Origin: Burkholderiaceae bacterium | Lineage (GTDB): Bacteria > Pseudomonadota > Gammaproteobacteria > Burkholderiales > Burkholderiaceae_C | NCBI GenBank assembly: GCA_019745555.1 | Contig: JAIESX010000020.1 | Coordinates: forward strand, 1 to 64,000 | DNA: 64,000 nucleotides | Direction of reading: 5' to 3' | Part shown: positions 26,797 to 60,156 of the stretch, piece after piece | How the letters are laid out: each line of letters starts with the position of its first letter | Numbering within the stretch: the stretch's first letter is position 1 | The notes under the pieces: model-generated | Told to the model about the DNA's origin: nothing | Database searches by the model: none | What the model saw: only the letters and a program-made list of their open reading frames with translations | Program-made: the position numbers and the translations under genes

Positions 26797-29523
26797 ATGT
26801 CACTCACCCTGTCCCGTGCCGAAGCCCTGTTGCTCGGTGCCCTTGCCCTCCTGGCCCTGTGGGCCGGCTTCGGTCCATCGTTGGCCCAGGCCCCGCACAT
26901 CCATGACTACGCCGACCAGCGCGCCTGGCTGGGCCTGCCCTGTGCGCTCGACGTGCTGAGCAATCTGCCCTTTGCGCTCTTCGGCCTCTGGGGCCTGCGC
27001 GTGCTGGGTCGCGTACCCGCTGCGGCGCTGGACGGCACGCAGCGCGCCCTGGCCGCGCTCTTCTTCACGGGCCTGGTGCTCACGGCCTTGGCCTCGGGCT
27101 GGTACCACTGGCGGGCGGACGATGCGGGTCTGTTCATCGACCGCCTGGGCATGAGCTTCGCGTTTGCCGGCCTCTTGGGTCTGGCTGTGGCCAGCCGCAT
27201 CACGGCACGCGCCGGCGCCTGGACGGCGCCCGTGGTGCTGCTCTGGGGTGGGCTCGGTGCCTGGATCTGCTGGCGCAGCGGCAACCTGCTGCCCTGGGCC
27301 GTGCTGCAGGGCGCGGGGCTGGCGCTGCTGCTGGTCTTGTCGACGTTGCCAGTGCGCGGGGTAGCGGTGCGCTGGTGGCTCATCATCGTCATCTATGCCG
27401 CGGCCAAGCTCTGCGAGCTGGCGGACCACGTGATCTACGAGGCCACCGGACAGCTCATTTCGGGTCACAGTCTCAAGCACCTCGTGGCTGCAGTCGCCGC
27501 CTGGCCTGTCATCCGCGCGTTAAAGGCGCTGGGGCAGAATGCCGGCGAACAGAACAAATCAACGGAGGAGACTCTCTTGCGCGACTTTGACCAAGCCTGG
27601 CCTGAGGGGCAGAAGCCCGCGGCCCACGACGCCCATCCCAACCAGTTCGCCCTGCTCAAGCAACGCCGCTTCGCGCCCTTCTTCTGGACACAGTTCGCCG
27701 GCGCGGCCAACGACAACCTCTTCAAGTTCGCCTTCACCGTGATGGTGACCTACCAGCTCAGCGTGGGCTGGCTGCCGCCGGCGCTGGCGGGCCTGGTGAT
27801 CGGCGCGCTCTTCATCCTGCCCTTCGTGCTCTTCAGTGCCACCAGTGGGCAACTGAGCGACAAGTACAACAAGACGCGGCTGATGCGCTTCACCAAGGAC
27901 CTGGAGATCGCCATCATGCTGATCGCGGCCTGGGGCTTCGTCATGGGCCAGGTGGCCGTGCTGCTGGGCTGCATCTTCCTCATGGGCCTGCAGTCCACCA
28001 TCTTCGGCCCCGTCAAATACGCCTACCTGCCCGAGGTGCTGGGCGAGCGCGAGCTCACGGGCGGCAACGGCATGATCGAGATGGGCACCTTCGTGGCCAT
28101 CCTGCTGGGAAATGTGGTCGGCGGCCTGGTGGTGGCCATGCCCGAGGTGGGCCACCAGAACGTGGCCGTCGCCTGCGTGGCCCTGGCCATCGTGGGCCGC
28201 GTCACGGCGGCGCGCATCCCGCTGGTGCCGCCGGCCGACCCCGCGCTGAAGATCAACTGGAACCCCTTCACCGAAACCTGGCGCAACCTCAAGCTCGCGC
28301 ACGGCAACATCGTCGTCTTCCGCTCCCTGCTGGGTATCAGCTGGATGTGGTTCTTCGGCGCCGTCTTCCTGAGCCAGTTCCCCAGCTTCGCCAAGGAGGT
28401 GCTGCACGGCAACGAGCAGGTCGCGTCTTTCCTGCTGGTGGTGTTCTCCATCGGCATCGGCACGGGCTCGCTGCTGTGCGAGCTCATGAGCCGCCGCCAT
28501 GTGGAAATCGGCCTGGTGCCGCTGGGCGCCATCGGCATGAGTGTCTTCGCCGTCGACCTCTACTTCGCCTCGCGCAGCCTGCCCGATGCCGAGCTCATGG
28601 GCCTGGCCGCCTTCCTAGCCCAGCCCGCGCACTGGCGCATCATGGCCGACCTGCTGTTGCTGAGCCTGTTCGCCGGCCTCTACAGCGTGCCCATGTACGC
28701 GCTGATCCAGCTGCGCAGCCCGGCCACGCACCGCGCGCGCATCATCGCCGCCAACAACATCCTCAACGCCTTGTTCATGGTGGTCAGCGCCGTGCTGGCC
28801 GGCGCCATGCTGGCCCTGGGTTTCAGCGTGCCCCAGGTCTTCCTGGCCGTGGGCCTGGCCAACGCCGTGGTGGGCATCTACATCTTCCTGATGGTGCCGG
28901 AATACCTGTTGCGCTTCATCGCCTGGCTGCTCACGCACTTCATCTACCGCTTCAAGATCAAGGGCGACGAACACATTCCGACGCAGGGCCCGGCCATCCT
29001 GGCCTGCAACCACGTGAGCTTCATCGACCCGGTGCTGCTCATGGCCGCCAGCCCGCGGCCCATCCGCTTCATCATGGACCACCGCATCTTCAAGCTGCCG
29101 GTGCTGGGCTGGCTCTTCAAGCTGGCCAAGGCCATCCCCATCGCCCCCAAGAGCGAAGACCCGCAGGCCTACGAGGCTGCGCTCAAGGCTGCCGTCGAAG
29201 TGCTGAAAGACGGCGAGCTGCTCGCCATCTTCCCCGAAGGCGGCATCACCCGCGACGGCACGCTGCAGGAGTTCAAGGGCGGCATCATGAAGATCCTGGA
29301 GCAGCAGCCCGTGCCCGTGATCCCCATGGCGCTCACCAACCTCTGGGGCTCCTACTTCAGCCGCATCGAACTCGTGGGCGGCAAGCCGACGGCGATGAGC
29401 AAGCCTTTCCGGCGCGGGCTGTTCAATCGGGTGGGGTTGAATGTGGGGGCGCCGGTGGCCGCGAATGAAGTTCAGTTGGATGGGTTGAGGGAAGGAGTAG
29501 CTAAGTTGGCTCGTGACGTTTAG
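26797..29523 (+). CDS. Fusion: ceramidase-like membrane domain + MFS transporter + PlsC acyltransferase
   Basis: One uninterrupted frame of 908 residues. Residues 1-250 are a seven-helix protein resembling the alkaline ceramidase/CREST group, with WYHWRADDAGLFIDRLGMSF near residue 102 and ELADHVIYEATG near residue 207. After a polar linker comes an LplT-like MFS transporter (about 285-690; AGAANDNLFKFAFT, SDKYNKTRLMRFTKDLE). The last 200 residues are a PlsC acyltransferase with NHVSFID (HX4D) and FPEGGITRDG. The last two parts together resemble a lysophospholipid flip-and-reacylate module as in Aas/LplT. A GGAGGAG at 27564-27570 six bases before an in-frame TTG (27577) marks a likely second start, so two proteins may be made. 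The first start follows ACGGAG. Confidence 0.8.
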   Translation: MSLTLSRAEALLLGALALLALWAGFGPSLAQAPHIHDYADQRAWLGLPCALDVLSNLPFALFGLWGLRVLGRVPAAALDGTQRALAALFFTGLVLTALASGWYHWRADDAGLFIDRLGMSFAFAGLLGLAVASRITARAGAWTAPVVLLWGGLGAWICWRSGNLLPWAVLQGAGLALLLVLSTLPVRGVAVRWWLIIVIYAAAKLCELADHVIYEATGQLISGHSLKHLVAAVAAWPVIRALKALGQNAGEQNKSTEETLLRDFDQAWPEGQKPAAHDAHPNQFALLKQRRFAPFFWTQFAGAANDNLFKFAFTVMVTYQLSVGWLPPALAGLVIGALFILPFVLFSATSGQLSDKYNKTRLMRFTKDLEIAIMLIAAWGFVMGQVAVLLGCIFLMGLQSTIFGPVKYAYLPEVLGERELTGGNGMIEMGTFVAILLGNVVGGLVVAMPEVGHQNVAVACVALAIVGRVTAARIPLVPPADPALKINWNPFTETWRNLKLAHGNIVVFRSLLGISWMWFFGAVFLSQFPSFAKEVLHGNEQVASFLLVVFSIGIGTGSLLCELMSRRHVEIGLVPLGAIGMSVFAVDLYFASRSLPDAELMGLAAFLAQPAHWRIMADLLLLSLFAGLYSVPMYALIQLRSPATHRARIIAANNILNALFMVVSAVLAGAMLALGFSVPQVFLAVGLANAVVGIYIFLMVPEYLLRFIAWLLTHFIYRFKIKGDEHIPTQGPAILACNHVSFIDPVLLMAASPRPIRFIMDHRIFKLPVLGWLFKLAKAIPIAPKSEDPQAYEAALKAAVEVLKDGELLAIFPEGGITRDGTLQEFKGGIMKILEQQPVPVIPMALTNLWGSYFSRIELVGGKPTAMSKPFRRGLFNRVGLNVGAPVAANEVQLDGLREGVAKLARDV

Positions 29524-29564
29524 TAACGTTGGTCAGCTGGAAACGTTTGGCTCAAATTGGGGGA

Positions 29565-30260
29565 ATGATGACGAATAAGAAATGGATGTACTTGGCTCTG
29601 GTGGCAGTGATTGCCATCTCGCTATGTCTTGTCATCTTTGGCACTGGCGAGTTGATTAAAGAACTCGCCGGAGTACCCTTGGTGCTCGCGCTAACTGCTG
29701 CCCTTTTTCAGATCATCCGAGATCAAAGTGCCCATGAGCGAAGTGAAGTTCTGATGCGTTACCAGAATAGTTTCGCAATGGGGGCGACCTCACATATGGC
29801 CAATGTCGCTTTCGACAAACATGCCAAGTTTTGCGAAGAGTACATAAAAGAATCTTACGCAGCACTGCAAACGATATTTCGTGAGGGGCCAACACCAGAG
29901 GCGCTGAACCATGCATCAAATTTGGTAAGCATTCGGGCGAAATATGCGGTTTGGCTAACGACAGAAATTGAGAATCAGCTGCAGCCTTTTGAGGCGGCAT
30001 TCCGTCAAATGGGGGCAAGTGCTGGCTATGTTGCGGCAACTGTTGGAGAGCGTACCGCGACACAACGGAAAGAACATATTGACCGTATGTATAGGCTTTT
30101 GGCCCAACTATCCAGCCAAAAAGAATGGGATGGGGAGGAACTTACAGATGATCTAGCTATCGCGACCCAGATTCAACGGTTGCGATCGATTCTCGGCATC
30201 GATGAGCTCAGCAAGTTGCGTCAGTCTCTGCTGATGCGCGCGGTCAAGGAACTGAATTAG
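29565..30260 (+). CDS. Orphan two-helix membrane protein of lower GC
   Basis: A 231-residue protein I cannot name. Two hydrophobic helices lie at residues about 6-25 and 33-50, followed by a 175-residue helical cytoplasmic part with RYQNSFAMGATSHMANVAFD and ASNLVSIRAKYAVWLTTEIE. I recall similar uncharacterised proteins scattered in proteobacteria. Base composition is unlike the neighbours: two 60-base lines I counted (29761 and 29821) are 50% and 38% G+C. Codons such as AAA, TTT and ATA are common. It was probably acquired as a single gene. Two ATGs (29565, 29568) follow a GGGGGA. Confidence 0.7.
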   Translation: MMTNKKWMYLALVAVIAISLCLVIFGTGELIKELAGVPLVLALTAALFQIIRDQSAHERSEVLMRYQNSFAMGATSHMANVAFDKHAKFCEEYIKESYAALQTIFREGPTPEALNHASNLVSIRAKYAVWLTTEIENQLQPFEAAFRQMGASAGYVAATVGERTATQRKEHIDRMYRLLAQLSSQKEWDGEELTDDLAIATQIQRLRSILGIDELSKLRQSLLMRAVKELN

Positions 30261-30298
30261 TGAGGTAGGTGGTGGGGTTAAGTGACGAGGCGAAACCC

Positions 30299-30841
30299 AT
30301 GAACAAACTTCCCCTTAACCAAGCCTTCACCCTGCTCGAACCCGGCCCCGTGGTGCTCGTCACCACCCATGACGGGAAGCAGCCCAACATCATGACCATC
30401 TCCTGGACGATGGTGGTGGACTTCACGCCGGTGTTCGCTCTCACCACCGGGCCCTGGAACCATTCCTTTGCCGCGCTGCGCAAGACGAAAGAGTGCGTGA
30501 TCGCTATCCCTACGGTGGACCTGCTGGACCAGGTCGTCGGCATCGGCACCTGCTCGGGCGCCGACACGGACAAGTTCGAGAAATTCAGGCTCACGCCGGC
30601 CAAGGCCAGCCAGGTGAAGGCACCGTTGATCATGGAATGCCTGGCGAACATCGAGTGCAAGCTGATCGACTACAGCCGCAAGCACGGTGTCGTCTTCCTG
30701 CAGGGCGTGGCCGCCTGGGTGGACGCCACACGCAAGGAACGCCGCATGCTGCACGCCGTGGGCGACGGCACCTTCATCGCCGACGGCCGCAAGCTGGACC
30801 GGCGCCAGGCCATGCGCGCCAAGCTGCCGGCCGGCGTCTGA
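30299..30841 (+). CDS. Flavin reductase-like / flavoredoxin family protein
   Basis: A 180-residue FMN-binding split-barrel protein. PVVLVTTHDGKQPNIMTISWTMVVDFTP (split, residues about 17-45) is the flavin-binding start of flavoredoxins, and KECVIAIPTVDLLDQVVGIG and ECLANIECKLIDYSRKHG follow. Such proteins bind FMN and reduce flavins or act as small electron carriers. No oxygenase partner is adjacent. The ATG gives MNKLPLNQAF, the usual start; an earlier GTG extension adds only ten residues that overlap no ribosome site. It stands alone between the lower-GC gene and two small membrane proteins. Confidence 0.85.
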   Translation: MNKLPLNQAFTLLEPGPVVLVTTHDGKQPNIMTISWTMVVDFTPVFALTTGPWNHSFAALRKTKECVIAIPTVDLLDQVVGIGTCSGADTDKFEKFRLTPAKASQVKAPLIMECLANIECKLIDYSRKHGVVFLQGVAAWVDATRKERRMLHAVGDGTFIADGRKLDRRQAMRAKLPAGV

Positions 30842-31044
30842 GTGGCCAGTGGGGCGACAAGGCCGGGCGAACAAGCACTTGGCGAGATCTGTGACCACAG
30901 TGACAATGACCTTCAGCTGTCAATGCAGGTTGGGCGCATGAAAAGTTTGCATCTCTTCCGATGGCATGCGCTTGCCGCTTGCGGCTTGCCACAGACCGCA
31001 GCTGGCGAGTGGCATGGCGGTCTTTTTCGCTGGACAAGGCGCGC

Positions 31045-31461
31045 ATGATGAAAAGAGTCAATCCGGGGGCGGCCTTGCTTGCGGCCGTGATCATTACAGT
31101 CCTTGCTGCGCTTGCGTGGCCGGCCCTGTGGGGTATCGCATGCGATGCTCTGTCCGATGGGTCGATCGTTGTCGGCATACGTTCCCGCCCAGCCGGATTT
31201 GCATGGCACCACACCTACACGATCCATGCTTCGCCGGTGCTGTTCTCGCTGCATGTTGCTGCCTATCCTGCTCTCGCCGTCATGCTGTCGCTGTTTGCCG
31301 CAGTGACGTGGTTGACTCTGCTGCCACTGGCCATTCTCAGGCTGGTGTTCGTGAAAAGACTGTTGGTCATCATGGTTTTCGGAGGTGCTGCGGCAGGCGT
31401 CTATTGGCTTTTGGTTTTTTTCGGCTTGACGTTGATAGGCCTGGTGATAGCCCCACCTTAG
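31045..31461 (+). CDS. Small membrane protein of unknown function
   Basis: A 138-residue protein with a first helix at residues about 8-28 (LLAAVIITVLAALAWPALWG), an external loop of about 35 residues with WHHTYTIHASPVLF, and three closely spaced helices after residue 68. I recognise no family. Two ATGs (31045, 31048) follow a poor AAGG. The 200 bases between it and the flavin-reductase gene show no gene or clear promoter. The next membrane-protein gene begins 26 bases after its stop. Confidence 0.55.
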   Translation: MMKRVNPGAALLAAVIITVLAALAWPALWGIACDALSDGSIVVGIRSRPAGFAWHHTYTIHASPVLFSLHVAAYPALAVMLSLFAAVTWLTLLPLAILRLVFVKRLLVIMVFGGAAAGVYWLLVFFGLTLIGLVIAPP

Positions 31462-31487
31462 CGCCGCACCCGAAGGGCCCCACCATC

Positions 31488-31910
31488 ATGTTGCGATCTG
31501 GTCGTTTGCATTTCTTCCTCCTGGGCTTGGTCCCGCTGCTGAACGCGCTCGCCCTGCTGCTCTACGGCCTGCACCTGGCCACCAGCGGTTCGGGCGGGAC
31601 GGAGCGGGCCGTGCCGGTGCTGCTGGTGCTGGCCGCGGCGGGTGGGCTGGCTCTGGGCGTGGCGGTGGTCCGGCGCGGCCGAGACCTGGGGTCGGGTGCG
31701 CTGGCATCGTTGGCGGGCCTGGTGCTCAGCGCCGGCCTGGGCCCCATGGTCCTGCTGTATCTGGGCTACCTCTTGTTCAAGAACGGGCAGCCGGGGGACA
31801 ACGCCTTTGGCCCGCCCGCACCGGCCGCCACGCTGGCGGTCTGGCTCTGGTCTCTGGTGGCGCTGGTGCTGCCCTGGTTCATGGCCGTCATGGCGGCACG
31901 GCTGATGTAA
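31488..31910 (+). CDS. Small four-helix membrane protein of unknown function
   Basis: A 140-residue protein made of four hydrophobic helices (LHFFLLGLVPLLNALALLLYG at the start, split; AVPVLLVLAAAGGLALGVAVV; ALASLAGLVLSAGLGPMVLLY; WLWSLVALVLPWFMAVMAA). Between the third and fourth is KNGQPGDNAFGPPAP, which resembles the GxxGxNxYGPDP end motif of DUF805 proteins, but the rest does not match that family well enough for me to assign it. It starts 26 bases after the preceding small membrane gene and may be co-transcribed with it. Confidence 0.6.
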   Translation: MLRSGRLHFFLLGLVPLLNALALLLYGLHLATSGSGGTERAVPVLLVLAAAGGLALGVAVVRRGRDLGSGALASLAGLVLSAGLGPMVLLYLGYLLFKNGQPGDNAFGPPAPAATLAVWLWSLVALVLPWFMAVMAARLM

Positions 31911-31943
31911 GGCGGGCCGCTGGCCTGTCCCGACCAGCCAAAA

Positions 31944-32001
31944 GTATCGAAATCCGATACCAAAAATCCAAAGACGCGCCACTTGTATCGAAATCAGACT
32001 C
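31944..32001. promoter_or_regulatory. Second GTATCG-N5-CGATAC operator and a degenerate copy
   Basis: GTATCGAAATCCGATAC (31944-31960) has the same six-base arms and five-base spacing as the palindrome beside the XRE regulator. A second GTATCGAAATC at 31985-31995 has one intact arm only. The pair is spaced 41 bases apart, about four helical turns, and lies 60-117 bases before the YiaAB gene start. Confidence 0.7.
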
Positions 32002-52871: not shown

Positions 52872-54746
52872 ATGATCCCAGATCTGCCCCACTGGCGTTT
52901 CTTCCGTGCCGGCGGTTTTGACCAGGTCCGCCTGGACACCGCGGCCGAGCTGCTCAACATCGGTCAGCTCGACCAGAAGCTCTGGGTCGCGCTGTCCTGC
53001 CCCGTGCAGGGCATCGAGTTCGATGCGCGCACGCTGTCCTTCGTCGACAGCGACGGTGACGGCCAGGTCCGCGCGCCTGAGCTGATCGCCGCCGTGCAAT
53101 GGGCCGGCGAGCGCCTGCAGGACCCCGAGGTCCTGGTGGCCAGGCTGCCCGGCGTGCCGCTGGCCGCCATCCGCGCCGACGACGAGGAAGGCGCGGTCAT
53201 CGTCGCCGCGGCGCGCGAACTGCTCGCCGACCTGGGCAGCAGCGAAGACATGATCACGGTGGAGGCCGCGCGGGCCGCGCAGGCGCGCCACGCCCAGCGC
53301 GCCCTGGCCGCCTGGGAGGCTGCGGGCGCCAGCGCCCGTCCGCTGGGCGAGGCCACGGCCGTGGCCCATGCCGCTCTGGCCGAGGTGGCCGAGAAGGTGG
53401 AAGACTGGTTCGTGCGCTGCCGCCTCGCCGCCTATGACGAGCGCGCCGGCACGGCGCTCAACGCCGCCGACGCCACGCTGGCCGCGCTGGGAGCCGCCAC
53501 GCTCAGGACCGACACCGAGGGCGTGGCCGCCCTGCCGCTGGCGCGCGTGCACCCGGGTGCCGCGCTGCCACTGAGCTCCGGGCTCAACCCGGCCTGGGCC
53601 GCGCGCATGGCGGCGCTGCGCGATGCCGCGGTGCAGCCCCTGCTGGGCGAGCGCGCCCTGCTGACCGAGGCCGACTGGCAGACCGTCAAGGACAAGCTCG
53701 CGCCCTACGCGGCATGGCTCGCGGCCAAGCCCGACGTGGCGGCCGAAGGCGAGGGCATCCGCCAGCTGGAGAAGCTCGCGCATTACGTGCGCGACCTGCA
53801 GACCCTGGCCAACAACTTCGTCGCCTTCCGCGACTTCTACACGCGCCAGGGCAAGGCCAGCTTCCAGGTCGGCACTCTCTATCTGGACAGCCGCTCGGCC
53901 GAACTCTGCGTGGCCGTCAACGACGCCGGTCGCCACGCCGCGCTGGCCACGCTCGCGCGCATCTGCCTCGTGTACTGCGACTGCGTGCGTGGAAGCGAGA
54001 AGCTCAGCGTGGCTGCCGCCTTCACCGCAGGCGACTCCGACCAGCTCATGGTGGGCCGCAACGGCGTGTTCTACGACCGCCAGGGCCGTGACTGGAATGC
54101 CACCATCACCAAGATCGTCGAGCACCCCATCAGCCTGCGCCAGGCCTTCTGGTCGCCCTACAAGCGCCTGGCGCGCTTCGTCGGTGAGCAGCTGCAGAAG
54201 ATCGCGGCGAGCAAGGCCAAGGCCTCGGACGACAAGCTCACCGCCGCCGCGGTGGACAGCGGCAAGAAGGTGGGCACGGTGGCCGCCGCACCCGCCACGC
54301 CCCCGCCACCGCCCGCGCCCTTCGACGTGGCCAAGTTCGCCGGTATCTTTGCCGCCATCGGCCTGGCCCTGGGCGCCATCGGCTCGGCGCTGGCCGCCGT
54401 GCTCTCGGGCTTCTTCTCCCTGGTCTGGTGGCAGTGGCCCATCGCCATCGCCGGCCTGGTGCTCGTGATCTCGGGTCCGGCCGTCATCCTGGCCTGGTTC
54501 AAGCTGCGCAGCCGCAACCTGGGCCCCATCCTCGACGCCAATGGCTGGGCCATCAATGCGCGCGCCAAGATCAACATCCCCTTCGGCACCTCGCTGACCC
54601 AGCTGGCCCAGCTGCCGGCCCATGCCGAGCGCGCGCTCACCGATCCCTACGCCGAGAAGAAGAAGCCCTGGGGGCTTTATCTCCTCCTCGTGGCTGTCGC
54701 GCTCTTCGCGGCCTTTGCCTGGGTGTTGCGCGATCATTTCAGGTGA
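52872..54746 (+). CDS. EF-hand membrane protein of unknown function
   Basis: A 624-residue protein. Near the N-terminus a textbook EF-hand loop is present, DSDGDGQVRAPE at residues 59-70, with acidic residues at positions 1, 3, 5 and 12. A long Ala/Glu-rich helical region follows (about 90-300), then LYLDSRSAELCVAVNDAGRH and CVRGSEKLSVAAAF near residue 360. A proline-rich linker at about 475-485 leads to two or three helices (485-550) and a last helix at the C-terminus. It lies next to cation transporters and could sense calcium, but I know no function for this family. An ACAGGAG site fixes the start. Confidence 0.72.
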   Translation: MIPDLPHWRFFRAGGFDQVRLDTAAELLNIGQLDQKLWVALSCPVQGIEFDARTLSFVDSDGDGQVRAPELIAAVQWAGERLQDPEVLVARLPGVPLAAIRADDEEGAVIVAAARELLADLGSSEDMITVEAARAAQARHAQRALAAWEAAGASARPLGEATAVAHAALAEVAEKVEDWFVRCRLAAYDERAGTALNAADATLAALGAATLRTDTEGVAALPLARVHPGAALPLSSGLNPAWAARMAALRDAAVQPLLGERALLTEADWQTVKDKLAPYAAWLAAKPDVAAEGEGIRQLEKLAHYVRDLQTLANNFVAFRDFYTRQGKASFQVGTLYLDSRSAELCVAVNDAGRHAALATLARICLVYCDCVRGSEKLSVAAAFTAGDSDQLMVGRNGVFYDRQGRDWNATITKIVEHPISLRQAFWSPYKRLARFVGEQLQKIAASKAKASDDKLTAAAVDSGKKVGTVAAAPATPPPPPAPFDVAKFAGIFAAIGLALGAIGSALAAVLSGFFSLVWWQWPIAIAGLVLVISGPAVILAWFKLRSRNLGPILDANGWAINARAKINIPFGTSLTQLAQLPAHAERALTDPYAEKKKPWGLYLLLVAVALFAAFAWVLRDHFR

Positions 54747-54753
54747 CCCTGCG

Positions 54754-55539
54754 ATGAAGGACGGCTTGCGCGCGCTGGACGCCGCCCTGGAAGCGGTGCA
54801 CGCGCAGACCCGGACCCCGGGGCGCGGTCCGGTGTCCCTGGACACGCTGGCGCTGCCGCGCGGCCTGTCGGGGCTGGTGCTCGCACCCCACCCGGACGAC
54901 TTCGACGCCATCGCCATCACCCTGCGCCGCCTGCAGGCGCAGGGCATGCGCCTGCACCTCGCGGTGTGCACCACGGGTGCCAGCGGTGTGGAGACTGGCT
55001 ATGCCGGGGCGCAGACCGACGACGCCAAGGCCGCGCTGCGTGAGCGCGAGCAGGCGGCGAGCTGCGCCCTCTTCGGCCTGCCGGCGGCGCAGCTGACGTT
55101 CCTGCGTCTGCCGAACGACGAGGGTGGCAACCCGCGCCTCGACGAAGCTAACCAACTCATCATCCAGCATCTGCTCGCACAGCATCAACCCCACTGCGTC
55201 TTCTTGCCGCACGGCAACGACAGCAACGTGACCCACCAGCGCACCTATGCACTGATCGAGGCCGTGGCGCGGCAGATGCGCTACCCCTTGTGGGCCTGGC
55301 TGAACCAGGACGCCAAGACGCTGGCCATGCAGCAAGACCTGTACACGCCCTTTGATGAAGACGCCGCGCGTTGGAAGGCCGAGCTCTTGCGTTTTCATGC
55401 CTCCCAGCACCAGCGCAACCTCAACACCCGCGGCCATGGCTTCGACGCGCGCGTGCTGGGCCTCAACCAGAAGGCCGCCGCCGCGGCGCAGGCGGCCCAG
55501 CCTTACGCCGAATTGTTCGAGCTCCAGCGGCTCGACTGA
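54754..55539 (+). CDS. PIG-L family deacetylase
   Basis: A 261-residue zinc deacetylase. The metal motif PHPDDFDA lies near residue 48 and the second ligand histidine is in HGNDSNVTHQRTY near residue 160; between them FLRLPNDEGGNPRLDE is typical. PIG-L enzymes remove acetyl groups from N-acetylglucosamine-type substrates. Its ATG follows the EF-hand gene by 7 bases, so the two are probably co-transcribed. It ends just before the sigma-type promoter of the bufferin operon and is not part of it. Confidence 0.88.
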   Translation: MKDGLRALDAALEAVHAQTRTPGRGPVSLDTLALPRGLSGLVLAPHPDDFDAIAITLRRLQAQGMRLHLAVCTTGASGVETGYAGAQTDDAKAALREREQAASCALFGLPAAQLTFLRLPNDEGGNPRLDEANQLIIQHLLAQHQPHCVFLPHGNDSNVTHQRTYALIEAVARQMRYPLWAWLNQDAKTLAMQQDLYTPFDEDAARWKAELLRFHASQHQRNLNTRGHGFDARVLGLNQKAAAAAQAAQPYAELFELQRLD

Positions 55540-55553
55540 GCCCTGGGGCGCCC

Positions 55554-55579
55554 TGTAAGTTTTTCATCCCTGCGCCGAC
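55554..55579 (+). promoter_or_regulatory. Predicted ECF-sigma promoter of the bufferin operon
   Basis: TGTAAG (55554-55559) and CGAC (55576-55579) are 16 bases apart and the last part reads CCCTGCGCCGAC. The same two elements, 17 bases apart and with the same 12-base CCCTGCGCCGAC, precede the operon that encodes the ECF sigma factor (60130-60156). The distance to the bufA start is about 75 bases. Confidence 0.75.
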
Positions 55580-55653
55580 TGATGCTCAGGCCGGCTGTTG
55601 CCGGCCCGGGTGCCGCTGTCCGGCGGTGCCCCACCGAACGACTGGAGATGAGC

Positions 55654-55941
55654 ATGAAGAAATCAACCCTGGCCAACCTGGCCGCTGGCGCCACCCTGGC
55701 CCTCGGCAGCGCCCACGCTGCCACCGCCAACCCCTTTGAAGCCACCCGTCTGGACGCCGGCTACCAGCTGGCCCAGGCCGACAAGAAGAGTGACGCGAGC
55801 TGCGGCGGCAAGAAAGCCGATGCCAAGTGCGGCGCCGACAAGAAGGCCGACGACATGAAGGGCAGCGGCATGAAAGACAAGAAGATGGACGCCAGCTGCG
55901 GCGGCAAGAAGGGCGAAGCCTCCTGCGGCGCCAAGAAGTAA
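55654..55941 (+). CDS. bufA: BufA/HvfA-type bufferin precursor peptide
   Basis: A 95-residue secreted peptide. A signal peptide (MKKSTLANLAAGATLALGSA) ends near residue 23; ANPFEATRLDAGYQLAQADK follows, matching the start of HvfA/BufA2 peptides. The rest is Lys/Asp/Gly-rich with four cysteines at 50, 59, 82 and 91, each in the module [DE]-A-[SK]-C-G, close to the EGKCG motif of HvfA. Residues 47-64 and 79-95 are a duplication of the two-Cys unit. In HvfA and bufferins such cysteines are converted by the MNIO enzyme to copper-binding rings. The ATG at 55654 has GGAG six bases upstream; an ATG six bases earlier overlaps the site. Confidence 0.88.
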   Translation: MKKSTLANLAAGATLALGSAHAATANPFEATRLDAGYQLAQADKKSDASCGGKKADAKCGADKKADDMKGSGMKDKKMDASCGGKKGEASCGAKK

Positions 55942-55950
55942 GCTCTGCCA

Positions 55951-55970
55951 GCCAGCCTCGTGCTGCTGGC
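55951..55970 (+). other. Hairpin between bufA and the rest of the operon
   Basis: GCCAGC and GCTGGC form a 6-base perfect stem with an 8-base loop 10 bases after the bufA stop. No T run follows. A hairpin here could protect the bufA message or reduce read-through, giving more peptide than enzyme. Confidence 0.4.
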
Positions 55971-56036
55971 GTCCGGGGCGGTCGGGCTAGAAAGCTCGTC
56001 TGTCCCGGGCCTGTTGTTGGTCCCCAGGAGTCAACT

Positions 56037-56570
56037 ATGCCCCAATCCCTGATGCCCCGTCAGCCCGTGCCCGGGCTGGAAACCCCCACTCTCTCTGGCC
56101 GTGGCCTGTTCCTGCAGGCGGGCCGAGCACCGAAATTCACCTTGCTGGTTTTCTACCGCGGCTTTCACTGTCCCCAGTGCCGCGCCTATCTCAGTGAACT
56201 CAAGCGCCTGCTGCCAGAGTTCGTGCAACGCGGGGTGGAGGTGCTGGTGCTGTCTTCCGACACGCAGGAGCGCGCGCAGCGCGCGGCGAGTGAATGGGGC
56301 TTGGAGGGCCTCGATCTGGGTTATGGCCTGACGCTTGACGTCGCGCGCCGCTGGGGCCTGTATGTTTCTACCAGCCGGGGCCTGACCTCCACGGGTGTCG
56401 AGGAGCCGGCCCTGTTTTCCGAACCCGGGGTGTTTCTCCTCCGGCCCGATCTTACGTTGTACTGGGCTAGCGTCCAGACCATGCCCTTTGCACGCCCGCA
56501 GTTCAAGGACATGCTTGCCGCCATCGACTTTGTGGTGGCCAAGGACTACCCGGCGCGCGGAGAGGCCTGA
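56037..56570 (+). CDS. Peroxiredoxin-like (AhpC/TSA fold) protein in the bufferin operon
   Basis: A 177-residue cytoplasmic protein of the thioredoxin/AhpC-TSA fold. FYRGFHCPQCRAYLSELKRL near residue 39 contains a CxxC (45-48) where ordinary peroxiredoxins have a single peroxidatic cysteine. VLVLSSDTQERAQRAASEWGL near residue 72 (split) and ARRWGLYVSTSRGL follow the family. It has no signal peptide, so it works in the same compartment as the MNIO enzyme. CAGGAG precedes it, its stop overlaps the MNIO start by one base (TGATG), and it lies between precursor and enzyme. It could reduce the precursor's cysteines before modification or protect the iron centre. Confidence 0.8.
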   Translation: MPQSLMPRQPVPGLETPTLSGRGLFLQAGRAPKFTLLVFYRGFHCPQCRAYLSELKRLLPEFVQRGVEVLVLSSDTQERAQRAASEWGLEGLDLGYGLTLDVARRWGLYVSTSRGLTSTGVEEPALFSEPGVFLLRPDLTLYWASVQTMPFARPQFKDMLAAIDFVVAKDYPARGEA

Positions 56571-57421
56571 TGCCTGCGCAGCGGTCCCCCACGGGCGCCG
56601 GTCTGGGCTGGCGCCGTGAACTCATCACCGCGCTAGCCGCCGGCGTGCCGCCCGCGCTGCAGTTCTTCGAGCTTGCGCCCGAGAACTGGGCCGGTGCGGG
56701 GGGACGTTCGGCGCGTGAGTTGCGCGCCTGGACCGAACGCTACCCCTTCGTTTGCCACGGCCTCTCGCTCTCACTGGGTGGCCCGGGCCCGCTGGATGAG
56801 GACTGGCTGCGCCGCATCAAGGGCTTCATGCGCCAGCACGGCATGACGCTCTACACCGAACACCTGGCCTGGTGTGCCGACGAGCACCCGCTCTACGACC
56901 TGCTGCCCCTGCCGTTGAGCGAAGAAGCCGTGCACTGGACGGCCGCGCGCATCCGCCGTGTGCAGGATATCCTGGAGATGCGCATCGGCGTGGAGAACAC
57001 CTCCACCTATCTGCTGCCGCCGGGCACCGAACTCAGTGAAGCCGAGTTTGTGCGCGCCGTCGTGCAGGAGGCCGATTGCCTGCTGCACCTCGACGTCAAC
57101 AACCTCTACGTCAACAGCCACAACCACGGCTATGACGCGCACGCGGCGCTGCAGGCCCTGCCGCTGGAGCGCGCCTGCTACATCCACGTCGCCGGCCACG
57201 AGGCCGAGCCCGACGGTCTGCTGATCGACACCCACGGCGCGCCCGTGGTAGACCCCGTGTGGGAGCTGCTGGCCGCGGCCTATGCGCGCACCGGTGGCCA
57301 TGTGCCCACCTGCCTGGAGCGCGACTTCAACTTCCCCGGCCTGCCCGTGCTCGCCGCCGAGGTGGCGCAGATCGCGCACCTGCAGGCGGCCGCGCAGCCA
57401 GCCCACGAGGCGGTCGCATGA
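56570..57421 (+). CDS. bufB: MNIO-family (DUF692) multinuclear iron oxidase, BufB/HvfB type
   Basis: A 283-residue TIM-barrel enzyme. Conserved DUF692 elements appear in order: GLGWR near residue 11, ELAPENW near 34, FVCHGLSLSLGGPGPLD near 60, TLYTEHLAW near 92, VENTSTYL near 140, LHLDVNNLYVNSHNHG near 166, YIHVAGHE near 205 and IDTHG near 219. The His/Glu/Asp residues bind two or three irons. The family oxidises cysteines in precursor peptides to oxazolone-thioamide or thiooxazole groups. The short N-terminus starts directly at the barrel. It lies between the peroxiredoxin-like gene and the DUF2063 gene, each overlapping. Confidence 0.95.
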   Translation: MPAQRSPTGAGLGWRRELITALAAGVPPALQFFELAPENWAGAGGRSARELRAWTERYPFVCHGLSLSLGGPGPLDEDWLRRIKGFMRQHGMTLYTEHLAWCADEHPLYDLLPLPLSEEAVHWTAARIRRVQDILEMRIGVENTSTYLLPPGTELSEAEFVRAVVQEADCLLHLDVNNLYVNSHNHGYDAHAALQALPLERACYIHVAGHEAEPDGLLIDTHGAPVVDPVWELLAAAYARTGGHVPTCLERDFNFPGLPVLAAEVAQIAHLQAAAQPAHEAVA

Positions 57422-58161
57422 ACACAGCGCCTGCCTTGCACGACTTCCAGCGCAGCTTCGCGCGCCATCTGCGCGATTCGCGTGGTGAGCCCCGCCCGGC
57501 CGGCGTGCCCGCGCGGCCCGCGGCCGTCTATGCCGGCCTGCTGTTCAACAACCTCAGCAGCTTTCTGGACCGTTGCCTGCCCGTGTGCCGCAGCGTGCTG
57601 GGCGAGGCACGCTGGCGCCGCCTGCAGCGCCGCTACTGGCGCGAGGCCCGGCCCGATTCGCCCCTGCACCGCGACATCCCGCGCGACTTCGCGCGCTGGC
57701 TCGAAGCCGGTCGCGCGGCGAACCTGCCGCGCTGGCTGCCTGCACTCGCGCACTACGAATGGGCCGAGCTGGCCGTGGACCTGATGGATCCGCCACTGCC
57801 CGCGCATGACCCGGCGGGCGACCTCATGCGTGCGAGCGTGGTGCTCAACCCCGCGCACCTGAACCTGGCCTACGACTGGCCGGTGCAGCGCATCGGCCCG
57901 CAGTACCGTCCGCGCCGTCCCGAGCCCGCCTGGCTGCTGGTCTGGCGCGATGCGCAGGACACGGTGCAGTTCATGCAGCTCAACGCCGTGTCTTCGCGTC
58001 TGTTGGCGCTGCTGGCCACGCTGCCGCAAAGCGGTGAGTCGGCTTGCGCGCAACTGGCCGCCCAGCTGGGCCTGGCCGATGCGCGCAGCCTGCACGGCCA
58101 TGCCGCCGCACTGCTGACCCAGCTGCAGCAGCAGGGCGTGGTGCTTGGCACCCGGCCCTGA
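57418..58161 (+). CDS. bufC: DUF2063 precursor-recognition partner, BufC/HvfC type
   Basis: A 247-residue protein. LHDFQRSFARHLRDS at residues 7-21 and VYAGLLFNNLSSFLDRCLPVCRSVLG near residue 37 (split) are the DUF2063 helical domain; the second half (LNLAYDWPVQRIG, AWLLVWRDAQDTVQFMQLNAVSSRLLALL, split) resembles the RRE-like partner domain. HvfC-type proteins bind the precursor and present it to the MNIO enzyme. Its ATG overlaps the bufB stop by four bases. No DoxX-type membrane gene (bufD) follows; the operon ends here, converging on the sigma operon 15 bases away. Confidence 0.93.
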   Translation: MNTAPALHDFQRSFARHLRDSRGEPRPAGVPARPAAVYAGLLFNNLSSFLDRCLPVCRSVLGEARWRRLQRRYWREARPDSPLHRDIPRDFARWLEAGRAANLPRWLPALAHYEWAELAVDLMDPPLPAHDPAGDLMRASVVLNPAHLNLAYDWPVQRIGPQYRPRRPEPAWLLVWRDAQDTVQFMQLNAVSSRLLALLATLPQSGESACAQLAAQLGLADARSLHGHAAALLTQLQQQGVVLGTRP

Positions 58162-58176: not shown

Positions 58177-58368
58177 TCAGGTCGGTGTGTCGTCGTCGCG
58201 GCGGAAATAGCCGCGGCTGGCCTGGCGCAGGAAATCGAGCTGCTTCTCGAAATTGCGGCAGCCCTGGCACATGGCCAGGTGCAGGCGCAGCGGCAGACGC
58301 TCGCGCAGCGCCAGCGGGCGGTCCTGCGCTTCGGAGAGCAGGCGGTTCACTTCCTTGCAGCTCAGCAT
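58177..58368 (-). CDS. Small zinc-type anti-sigma factor (ZAS)
   Basis: A 63-residue cytoplasmic protein. It begins MLSCKEVNRLLSEAQDRPL and carries HLAMCQGC around residues 31-38, the HxxxCxxC zinc motif of anti-sigma domains, then ends in a charged tail (YFRRDDDTPT) with no membrane helix. Its start overlaps the sigma factor stop by seven bases, so the pair is translationally coupled as usual for sigma and anti-sigma. Soluble ZAS proteins release their sigma factor when the zinc cysteines are oxidised or the metal is displaced. A longer frame upstream lies inside the sigma gene. Confidence 0.85.
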   Translation of the reverse strand: MLSCKEVNRLLSEAQDRPLALRERLPLRLHLAMCQGCRNFEKQLDFLRQASRGYFRRDDDTPT

Positions 58369-58940
58369 GGTGCTTCTCCCGGCGCGAACCAGCCGCGCTG
58401 CAGGCACAGGCGCAGCGCATTGCGCGCGCGGTGCAGGATGACGTTGCAGTTGCTCACGGTGATGCCCAGGGTCTGGCAGACCTCGGGTGTTTCGAAATCG
58501 AGGAACTCGCGCATCATGAAGACGCGCGCGGTGTTCTCGGGCAGGTGGTTGAGGCAGGCGTCGAACACATCCCAGAAATGCTGCTGGCGCAGGCAGGCCT
58601 CGGGGTCGCCCCAGCTCTGCGGGCGCGCCGTCGGCGTCCAGTGCCCGCTTTCGCGGAACAGGGTCTCGAAGGTCTGGTCCATGCTTTCCTCCTCGGCCGA
58701 AAATGCCGAGACATTGGTGCTGCGGCTCTGCATGCGGATCAGGTCCACGATCTTGTGCTTGAGGATGCCGAACACCCAGGTCTTCATGGCTGCCCGCCCG
58801 GCGAACTGCTGTGCGTTCTGCAGCGCGGCCAGCAGGGCTTCCTGCGCCACGTCCTCCGCTGCGGCGGCATCGCGCAGCTGTAGACGCGCAAAGCGCAGCA
58901 GGTCGGGGCGCAGGGCGGCTAGGGCGTCGTGGTCGGGCAT
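58362..58940 (-). CDS. ECF RNA polymerase sigma factor
   Basis: A 192-residue sigma-70 family protein with only regions 2 and 4. Region 2: DLLRFARLQLRDAAAAEDVAQEALLAAL (split) and TWVFGILKHKIVDLIR near residue 54. Region 4: LPENTARVFMMREFLDFETPEVCQTLGITVSNCNVILHRARNAL (split) with the helix-turn-helix. An insert of about 45 residues between them is longer than in minimal ECF factors. It is coupled to a 63-residue ZAS protein and lies next to the bufferin operon; both operons share a promoter type, so it is the likely regulator of each. The inducer is probably metal or thiol stress. Confidence 0.92.
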   Translation of the reverse strand: MPDHDALAALRPDLLRFARLQLRDAAAAEDVAQEALLAALQNAQQFAGRAAMKTWVFGILKHKIVDLIRMQSRSTNVSAFSAEEESMDQTFETLFRESGHWTPTARPQSWGDPEACLRQQHFWDVFDACLNHLPENTARVFMMREFLDFETPEVCQTLGITVSNCNVILHRARNALRLCLQRGWFAPGEAPC

Positions 58941-58947
58941 CCGGTCA

Positions 58948-59679
58948 TTAGAACAGAGTGGTCAGCCGCACCCAGGATTCGGGCAGCACATCAAGCACCT
59001 GTGCTTCGAGCCACTTGTCGGCGCCAGTGAGGATGGCCACACCGGCGGCCACGATCAGCAGGCCGAAGACCTTCTTCAGCGTCTCCGCGTGCGTCAGCAC
59101 CCAGCCGCGCGCGCGCACGAAGCCGCTGCGCGAGGCATAGGCTGCGACGACCAGGGGCACGGCCGCGCCCAGACCGAACAGGCCCAGGATGAAGGCGCCG
59201 CGCCCGGCCCCGCCCTCGCTGGCCACCAGCGTCATGGCCGAGGCCAGCAGCGGGCCCGAGCAGGGGCTCCACACCAGACCCAGCAGACCGCCGAGCGCCA
59301 GCGCGCCCAGCAGCGAACCGGCGTTGAGCCGGCTGCTCGCGGCCTGCGCGCTGCTGGCGATGGGCATCACAGCCTGCGTGAAGCGCTCGTTCAGCACGGG
59401 CACCAGCATCACCAGGCCGAAGGCGATCAGCATGGCCGCGCCCAGGGTGCGCACACTGTCGGCGTCCACCCCCAGCGCGGGGCCGAGCGCGCCCAGCAGC
59501 AGGCCGATGCCCGCGAACGAGGCCGTCATGCCCGCGCCCATGGCCAGCGGCGCCAGCGGGTTGGACTGCACGGCGCCGCCCAGCACCAGGGGCAGCAGCG
59601 GAAAGACGCAGGGCGAAAGCGTGGTCAGGCTGCCGGCCACCATGCTCAGGCCGAGATGGGAGAAGGTGATGTCGGTCAT
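58948..59679 (-). CDS. CcdA/DsbD-like membrane thiol-transfer protein
   Basis: A 243-residue protein with six helices. The two redox cysteines of the CcdA/DsbD family are present: LSPCVFPLLPLVLGG with Cys24 and VWSPCSGPLLAS with Cys140, in pseudo-symmetrical helices. Such proteins carry reducing equivalents from cytoplasmic thioredoxin to periplasmic thiol proteins. It starts 13 bases after the thioredoxin-fold gene and ends 7 before the sigma gene, so all four genes are one transcript. Its periplasmic client is probably the adjacent thioredoxin-fold protein, and perhaps the bufferin cysteines. Confidence 0.9.
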   Translation of the reverse strand: MTDITFSHLGLSMVAGSLTTLSPCVFPLLPLVLGGAVQSNPLAPLAMGAGMTASFAGIGLLLGALGPALGVDADSVRTLGAAMLIAFGLVMLVPVLNERFTQAVMPIASSAQAASSRLNAGSLLGALALGGLLGLVWSPCSGPLLASAMTLVASEGGAGRGAFILGLFGLGAAVPLVVAAYASRSGFVRARGWVLTHAETLKKVFGLLIVAAGVAILTGADKWLEAQVLDVLPESWVRLTTLF

Positions 59680-59692
59680 CGCGGGCTCCGGT

Positions 59693-60076
59693 TCAGAGGG
59701 CGGACTTCAGCGCATCACGCAGCACGGCGGCCTCGGTCTCGCCGCCGGAGCGGCGCGTTTCCTGGCTGCCGCGGTAGACGATGAGTGTGGACTGCGCGCG
59801 CACCTTGAGCGCGCGCTTGAGCTCACGCTCCTTGTCGTAGTTCACCACCAGCAGGGTCAGTGGCAGGCTGGAATCGCCCTTGAGGGACTGGAAGACCTTT
59901 TCCTGCGCGCGGCAGGTGGGGCACCAGTCGGCATGGAAATGCAGAGCCACGGGCCGGCCGGCCTGTTGTGCGGCTTGCAGCGCGGCGGGGCTGTAGGGCT
60001 GGATGTTGAGGGCCTGGGCGCTGCCGAGACTCAGCAGCAGGGCCAGCATGGCCAGGACATGGCGCAGGGATTTCAT
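59693..60076 (-). CDS. Secreted thioredoxin-fold protein
   Basis: A 127-residue protein with a signal peptide ending AQA-LNIQPYS (residues about 1-22). The active site WCPTC covers residues 51-55 in HFHADWCPTCRAQEKVF, and LKVRAQSTLIVYRG later carries a thioredoxin-type strand (no cis-proline motif clearly seen). It is small for a TlpA/DsbE protein. The ATG is preceded by CGGAG. It is the first gene of the operon with the CcdA-like protein, the sigma factor and the ZAS protein, and a TGTAAG/CGAC promoter lies about 55 bases upstream. An in-frame start 17 codons upstream lies in that leader. Confidence 0.85.
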   Translation of the reverse strand: MKSLRHVLAMLALLLSLGSAQALNIQPYSPAALQAAQQAGRPVALHFHADWCPTCRAQEKVFQSLKGDSSLPLTLLVVNYDKERELKRALKVRAQSTLIVYRGSQETRRSGGETEAAVLRDALKSAL

Positions 60077-60129: not shown

Positions 60130-60156
60130 GTCGGCGCAGGGCGCCGATTTCTTACA
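60130..60156 (-). promoter_or_regulatory. Predicted ECF-sigma promoter of the thioredoxin/CcdA/sigma operon
   Basis: Read on the minus strand, TGTAAG (60156-60151) is followed after 17 bases by CGAC (60133-60130), and the last part reads CCCTGCGCCGAC, identical over 12 bases to the bufA promoter. It lies just after the tgt stop, so tgt does not need to be in the same transcript. The likely start point is about 45 bases before the thioredoxin-fold gene. Confidence 0.75.

Follow-up and report, generated by a model that had tools for sequence, protein, structure and literature searches.

The first 64,000 nucleotides of contig JAIESX010000020.1 from a Burkholderiaceae bacterium (GCA_019745555.1; positions 1-64,000, hereafter the window) carry four plus-strand genes in series, which encode a precursor peptide, a redoxin, an MNIO-family enzyme and a DUF2063 protein. 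We describe this locus as a redoxin-bearing variant of the HvfABC operon with an outlying precursor. It is well supported as an HvfABC-type operon, and the variant was undescribed in the literature searched. The genes of the operon are as follows:

55648..55941 (alternative start 55654), plus strand: hvfA-like precursor peptide, 97 codons
56037..56570, plus strand: redoxin of the AhpC/TSA fold with a CPQC motif, 177 amino acids, no signal peptide by eye; its stop overlaps the hvfB start
56570..57421, plus strand: hvfB, complete, an MNIO (DUF692) maturase of ribosomally synthesized and post-translationally modified peptides (RiPPs); NF003818 at 371.5 bits (cut-off 360), PF05114
57418..58161, plus strand: hvfC, complete, the DUF2063/RiPP recognition element partner; NF050145 at 254.6 bits (cut-off 142); its start overlaps the hvfB stop

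A preliminary description of this DNA had read the locus as a bufferin/HvfABC-like operon in which a peptide gene is followed by a complete DUF692 MNIO gene and a complete DUF2063 gene, all overlapping or close. Both enzyme genes were recovered as complete, the first by the HvfB and PF05114 models and the second above the HvfC cut-off, and the order of the three genes holds. Their direct succession does not: the redoxin gene at 56037-56570 had been overlooked, and since it intervenes, the peptide and MNIO genes are separated by 628 nt. The start given there, 55554, marks where a promoter-like site begins; the first gene starts at 55648. Of the double label, the HvfABC half is retained on the HvfB and HvfC scores. 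The labels bufferin 1 and bufferin 2 were rejected, since the MNIO scored 251.1 bits against an NCBIfam BufB cut-off of 310 and the peptide matched neither DUF2282 nor any other Pfam, NCBIfam or PHROGs model (the models used did not include the published 6/12-Cys profile). A methanobactin label was likewise rejected (MbnB, 25 bits against a cut-off of 325), and the MNIO also fell below the cut-offs of the ApyH and ChrH models. With near certainty, the operon is of the HvfABC (captophorin/oxazolin) type.

An outlying precursor and its predicted modification

The peptide has a signal-peptide-like N terminus (judged by eye), an NPF..GYQLA leader, and four modules of the form [DE]A[SK]CG whose cysteines are spaced by 9, 23 and 9, all as the preliminary description had it for this open reading frame (ORF). 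The modules lie at:

55792..55806, plus strand: module 1, DASCG
55819..55833, plus strand: module 2, DAKCG
55888..55902, plus strand: module 3, DASCG
55915..55929, plus strand: module 4, EASCG

Because the peptide matched no model of the three databases, a profile of its own was built from relatives' precursors. Seventy-eight HvfB loci were surveyed, five of which had no precursor ORF by our rule (L066, L188, L194, L198, L211), giving n = 73; the profile comprised 72 precursors encoded upstream of related HvfB genes, with the window peptide left out. Against it the window peptide scored 65.2 bits (E 3.7e-19); once the same-genus peptides, three in number, had been removed too, the score was 62.9 bits. 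The best of 600 shuffled controls reached 13.4 bits in the full run and 13.5 bits in the run without the same-genus peptides, and the window's 614 six-frame ORFs, the peptide's own frame aside, reached 7.0 bits at most (first run). Leader and core each matched the profile alone, at 29.6 and 18.6 bits. The match to these precursors is thus beyond chance.

Judged by its sequence, the window precursor is nevertheless an outlier within its family, and the difference from EGKCG peptides pointed out earlier was confirmed. It is the only one of the 73 without EGKCG, DGKCG or EAKCG, one of seven without a spacing-5 tandem, and one of three in which at most a quarter of the cysteines follow a lysine. 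It has no literal EGKCG repeats and so lies outside the strict Buf_EGKCG/oxazolin definition. The element [DE][AG]SCG is present in 16 of the 72 other precursors, and a spacing of 9 in three. The precursor of the Azonexus hydrophilus redoxin-type locus also lacks the tandem. The three same-genus relatives keep the enzyme together with four Cys-Gly modules, the first two as the tandem DGKCGEAKCG; they thus do not show the decay of modules beside a retained enzyme that was named earlier as grounds for abandoning the peptide reading. We considered whether the Met/Lys/Asp linker that separates module 2 from module 3 might be a methionine-rich peptide fused into HvfA, and rejected this, as the methionine fraction ranks 48th from the lowest of 73. 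Methionine-containing linkers were common among the precursors examined, which are not a random sample: their loci had been taken by rank of HvfB score, with three named records added.

For relatives of the operon, the literature describes 5-thiooxazole chemistry, copper binding and hypochlorite induction. The window HvfB carries Arg15, Arg16, Asp252 and Phe253, which by motif and position, not by alignment, are presumed to be the counterparts of the FonB residues that contact the substrate or are proposed as the base (the 128 HvfB rows of the residue comparison include some loci twice). The fontiphorin paper ties such residues to Lys-Cys substrates and catalysis, and reports a loss of 8 Da for two sites in the FonBC product (PMC13097082). 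It is quite likely that at least two cysteines of the window HvfA are modified, and somewhat more likely than otherwise that all four are; the product would then be expected to bind copper.

A difficulty for this prediction is that the window precursor has no tandem, while FonBC modified a two-repeat tandem substrate and left a one-repeat substrate unmodified (PMC13097082). The modules may have drifted from the tandem EGKCG substrate so far that the precursor is modified partly or not at all, as its unique lack of EGKCG, DGKCG and EAKCG would also suggest. We consider this unlikely, given that cysteine and glycine are retained in all four modules, that six other precursors of the 73 and that of the A. 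hydrophilus locus likewise do without the tandem, and that the presumed substrate-contact residues are present in HvfB. Moreover, FonBC accepts Ala, Arg and Thr before Cys, with Ser not mentioned there (PMC13097082). With single spaced modules only, the window precursor is a natural test of whether modification requires tandem repeats.

A redoxin coupled to hvfB

The redoxin stop and the hvfB start overlap as TGATG. The order hvfA-redoxin-hvfB was found for ten redoxins, that of the window and those of nine genomes of the Azonexus/Dechloromonas group, and the TGATG junction is present in 10/10. In a quick tree against 42 other redoxins, chosen from the fetched loci, the ten form one clade (SH-aLRT support 96) with signature residues of its own.

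Redoxin homologues outside this clade lie mostly away from MNIO genes. Of 399 sampled genomes of the order, 19 had a homologue at E 1e-20 or better, and only the window redoxin was placed in an hvf operon; among the 19 other redoxin loci of this sample, one (G417) lay within about 1.5 kb of an MNIO gene, which belongs to another kind of cluster with a Cys-Lys-type precursor. Among the best 80 homologues on GTDB contigs, the five best (75-76% identity) were all in hvfA-redoxin-hvfB-hvfC loci of the Azonexus/Dechloromonas group, one of them titled only Betaproteobacteria, and three of the other 75 had a non-adjacent MNIO gene within up to 5 kb (L240, L262, L304). Thirty-five of 149 relatives of the Dechloromonas genome G371 had a homologue at E 1e-60. 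Nine of these redoxins, with 75-78% identity, all lay downstream of an hvfA match and ran into hvfB; they include the five best GTDB loci, and at one the contig stops shortly after hvfB begins. None of the remaining 26, with 57-64% identity, had an HvfB match at E 1e-80 or better as a neighbour (0/26). Among 369 genomes of the class, homologues were found in 12 others; their identity was only 53-65%, with no MNIO gene nearby at any of these loci. The literature searched did not describe redoxins in MNIO operons, although supplements may list such domains.

Three of these wider-family loci have further neighbours of interest. Those of G417 (L107) and G424 (L116) lie near extracytoplasmic function (ECF) sigma genes and a similar radical S-adenosylmethionine gene, L107 additionally having its MNIO operon with the Cys-Lys-type precursor. 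At L304, the redoxin follows a DoxX match downstream of the MNIO gene, with DoxX between the two.

Observations on other loci count against a redoxin-based interpretation of this operon. The redoxin is missing from 77 of the 78 surveyed HvfB loci, from 42 of 51 related loci and from the three nearest HvfABC loci, which are of the same genus; since most HvfABC loci do without it, it is not generally needed. The 51 related loci are HvfB matches from a single genus, from the relatives of that genus and from the genus of the window (L045-L047, L367-L414 without L371, and the window), G439 being left out because its contig ends just inside hvfB. Absence from the same-genus loci and from 77/78 had suggested a one-off insertion, which is ruled out by the ten-member clade at the same position. 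On a tree of the 51 HvfB+HvfC pairs, redoxin presence requires at least five changes, four of them forced by well supported branches; the gene has therefore come or gone more than once, each time at this one position.

Such patchiness would also be expected if this were an ordinary HvfABC operon and the redoxin a passenger that spread with it in a few lineages, and the groupings fit this as well: the window redoxin goes with the Azonexus group, while the window HvfB and HvfC go with the redoxin-less loci of the same genus. A passenger would hardly explain the same position and overlap in all ten loci, or a clade with signature residues, and we regard this account as decidedly unlikely.

The protein matched AhpC-TSA at 52 bits (Pfam cut-off 26), and its AlphaFold model (mean predicted local distance difference test score 93.5) had peroxiredoxins as its best PDB matches. 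Two redoxin alignments both show its CxxC (C45, C48) without variation. Peroxiredoxins usually have the active-site motif PxxxTxxC; read from the sequence, the window redoxin has V38..G42..C45 instead, and the peroxiredoxin label was not adopted unchanged. A fold closest to peroxiredoxins allows a peroxidase role, which speaks against a purely reductive one. The redoxin could then be a protective peroxiredoxin-like enzyme, removing peroxide or repairing thiols in general under the same stress and kept in the operon for co-regulation. Besides the structural matches, the habit of the wider family of lying away from MNIO genes, and beside ECF sigma genes in G424 and G417, agrees with protection. 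However, if Cys45 were peroxidatic, the threonine and proline of the motif would be Gly42 and Val38 (inferred, not residue-aligned) beside an invariant CxxC, and protection leaves the fixed place before hvfB, the overlap and the separate clade unexplained. We find a protective role somewhat unlikely.

HvfBC requires dithiothreitol in vitro, the reductant mattering for the cysteine thiols and the iron cofactor, and the accessible part of that paper names no cellular reductant (PMC13419390). The CxxC, the lack of a visible export signal and the co-translation with HvfB fit the redoxin to such a role. That it is the dedicated reductant for modification by HvfB is possible, at a little short of an even chance. 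As a conserved protein coupled to hvfB, it is a concrete candidate for the cellular reductant of HvfBC.

We also considered the electron supply on the periplasmic side. Unlike many relatives, the window has no DoxX/HvfX gene adjoining hvfC, a further point against the function proposed below. Genes for a thioredoxin (Trx) and a DsbD-type protein lie nearby. After two of the 51 related loci with short downstream sequence were excluded, the 49 well covered loci had DoxX only in 28 cases, Trx/DsbD only in 15, both in two and neither in four, an exclusion with a Fisher p of 2.6e-7 when kinship is ignored. With kinship considered, independent pairs gave a mean of 3.8 opposite, 0 same and 3.2 ties (median p 0.125), so that the pattern is suggestive at most, for strict alternatives as for interchangeable roles of DoxX/HvfX and Trx-DsbD. 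DoxX was sought with one tblastn query, which may miss divergent copies. A broader model would have the translationally coupled redoxin as the missing physiological reductant of a captophorin MNIO, and HvfX/DoxX or thioredoxin plus DsbD as interchangeable suppliers of periplasmic electrons. We hold this combination to be doubtful. If true, the interchangeability would give a thiol-reducing role to HvfX, which is described as DoxX-like and uncharacterised (PMC13419390).

Predicted sigma control

Convergent with the hvf operon lie four minus-strand genes on which the preliminary description was silent. These genes, the promoter-like sites and two genes from other contigs are:

55554..55579, plus strand: promoter-like site TGTAAG-N16-CGAC upstream of hvfA, strict pattern match
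58177..58368, minus strand: zf-HC2 anti-sigma factor with HX3CX2C (HLAMCQGC), by profile matches and motif
58362..58940, minus strand: ECF sigma factor, TIGR02943 at 257.1 bits (cut-off 162.2)
58948..59679, minus strand: DsbD/CcdA-type transmembrane protein, PF02683 at 60.1 bits (cut-off 27.1)
59693..60076, minus strand: thioredoxin with an export signal by eye, PF00085 at 42.7 bits (cut-off 23.5)
60130..60156, minus strand: second promoter-like site, upstream of trx-dsbD-sigma-antisigma, strict pattern match
L053:1551-2549 and L113:6422-7417: msrP gene on contig C50 of the same genome, with a site 25 bp upstream
L150:8938-9167, minus strand: secreted methionine-rich peptide of the sister genome G013, behind a promoter corresponding to that of the window hvfA

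The strict pattern TGTAAG-N16/17-CGAC occurs three times in the assembly of the host (2.99 Mb, 88.6% complete), only before hvfA (at about 75 bp), before trx-dsbD-sigma-antisigma (54 bp) and before msrP (25 bp), the last gene scoring 475 bits against an MsrP cut-off of 207. A looser pattern, TGTAA[GC]-N16/17-CG[AT]C, was found at 43 of the 51 related loci, 200-800 bp before hvfB (1250 bp with a redoxin); the reversed pattern matched 0/51 and shuffled patterns a mean of 0.19 loci, with a highest value of 2. The -35 core and spacing of the sites fit the consensus of Neisseria sigma-E, GTMAGBWTT-N12/13-CGTCTAAH (PMC2893595). Two results weigh on the other side. The reversed strict pattern occurs eight times in the assembly, so the number of real sites is not raised and only their placement is telling; and the -10 element, CGAC, is one base off the Neisseria CGTC.

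NMB2140-2145 and msrAB are under sigma-E control in N. meningitidis (PMC3240639, PMC2893595). For H. influenzae, doxX-hvfABC and msrAB have been linked, under hypochlorous acid, to RpoE2 and its anti-sigma factor of 67 aa (PMC7907618). The window has the same combination of an ECF sigma factor and a small zinc-type anti-sigma factor (TIGR02943, zf-HC2, HLAMCQGC). Based on the shared sites, we predict that this sigma factor very probably controls the hvf operon. Since the Neisseria and Haemophilus sigma factors are tied to hvf-type and msr genes, the copper peptide is probably produced as one element of a response to oxidants.

Across the genus, the contents of the slot that separates the anti-sigma gene from the upstream genes vary. 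The sigma gene was detected at E 1e-60 or better in 13 of 26 genomes, including that of the window. The slot holds hvfA-redoxin-hvfBC in the window and hvfABC-doxX in G004, G009 and G025; it has no space for a gene in G005, G010, G014, G016, G018, G020 and G023; and G003 differs in having sigma beside msrP. In G013, whose genome gave no MNIO match, the methionine-rich peptide stands behind the corresponding promoter, and over the 60 bases that start at the site the window and G013 agree at 42 positions. Through the common promoter-like site, copper peptides would be linked with methionine-sulfoxide repair and, in G013, with this peptide, an indication of oxidant defence besides copper.

Other occurrences of these elements were noted. 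The same site stands before msrP in regions of five relatives, and at L156-L161 (G016, G018, G014, G010, G020, G027) it lies a few hundred bases before distant MNIO genes of 34-38% identity; both sets of regions were picked from the site list and give no unbiased count. At three HvfB loci (L069, L196, L197) the MNIO gene is preceded, within about 1.6 kb, by an MsrP-like gene. On the Pseudomonas aeruginosa plasmid pPALO11 (L106), genes for a sigma factor, a zf-HC2 anti-sigma factor, an hvfA-like peptide, hvfB, hvfC and doxX run in one direction. In the window, a PIG-L/LmbE-like gene (by eye, 54739-55539) lies just upstream of the hvfA promoter-like site; it is kept in G005, G013 and G020 and is not at that place in G009 and G025. 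Farther away, at 28001-32000, the G+C content falls to 61.6% from about 66-72% elsewhere, over the end of a long ORF resembling major facilitator superfamily and acyltransferase proteins and some small ORFs (by eye).

Proposed function and comparison with known systems

Overall, we lean towards a captophorin operon that is induced by stress, belongs to a subtype with a redoxin and is under ECF sigma control. The sigma factor, with its zinc-type anti-sigma factor of the Neisseria sigma-E/Haemophilus RpoE2 kind, would transcribe hvfA-redoxin-hvfB-hvfC from the promoter at 55554. HvfA would be made in the cytoplasm and presented by HvfC to HvfB, which would oxidise the four Cys-Gly cysteines, probably to 5-thiooxazoles; the modified HvfA would then be exported and bind copper. 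The redoxin, co-translated with HvfB, would keep the thiols of HvfA, and perhaps the iron of HvfB, reduced under oxidative stress.

Four sets of known systems can be compared with this locus. With the MrpX/BcrX peptides, methionine-rich and active with MsrPQ in hypochlorite defence in Azospira and Brucella (PMC8315932), the common ground is the secreted peptide of G013 behind the corresponding promoter and an msrP gene with the same site; the likeness of the G013 peptide is one of composition only, at 11.9 bits with the MXKDX model (cut-off 41).

The regulons of Neisseria sigma-E (rpoE/MseR, NMB2140-2145) and Haemophilus RpoE2/HrsE (PMC2893595, PMC3240639, PMC7907618) share with the window an ECF sigma factor, a small zinc-type anti-sigma factor, hvf genes, a methionine sulfoxide reductase, a GTAAG -35 core and an equal spacing to the -10, regulation being predicted in our case. 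The window differs in that msrP replaces msrAB, CGAC replaces CGTC in the -10, trx-dsbD lies upstream of sigma on the same strand, and the sigma genes are convergent with the hvf operon.

With the captophorins (fontiphorin, oxazolin HvfABC and gonophorin; PMC13097082, PMC13419390), the window shares an HvfB-type MNIO, an HvfC/PME1 partner, a secreted Cys-Gly-repeat precursor (its signal here seen by eye) and a stress setting. It has an extra redoxin between precursor and MNIO, and lacks EGKCG, DGKCG and EAKCG, the spacing-5 tandem and a DoxX/HvfX gene next to hvfC.

The fourth set comprises the Azonexus/Dechloromonas loci (L228-L232, L367-L375), for which literature searches found no describing paper. 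Unlike the window, these loci have tandem modules in four of the five precursors read, and doxX and/or trx/dsbD nearby on the same strand. What they have in common with it is the gene order, the TGATG junction, the redoxin clade and the promoter-like site.

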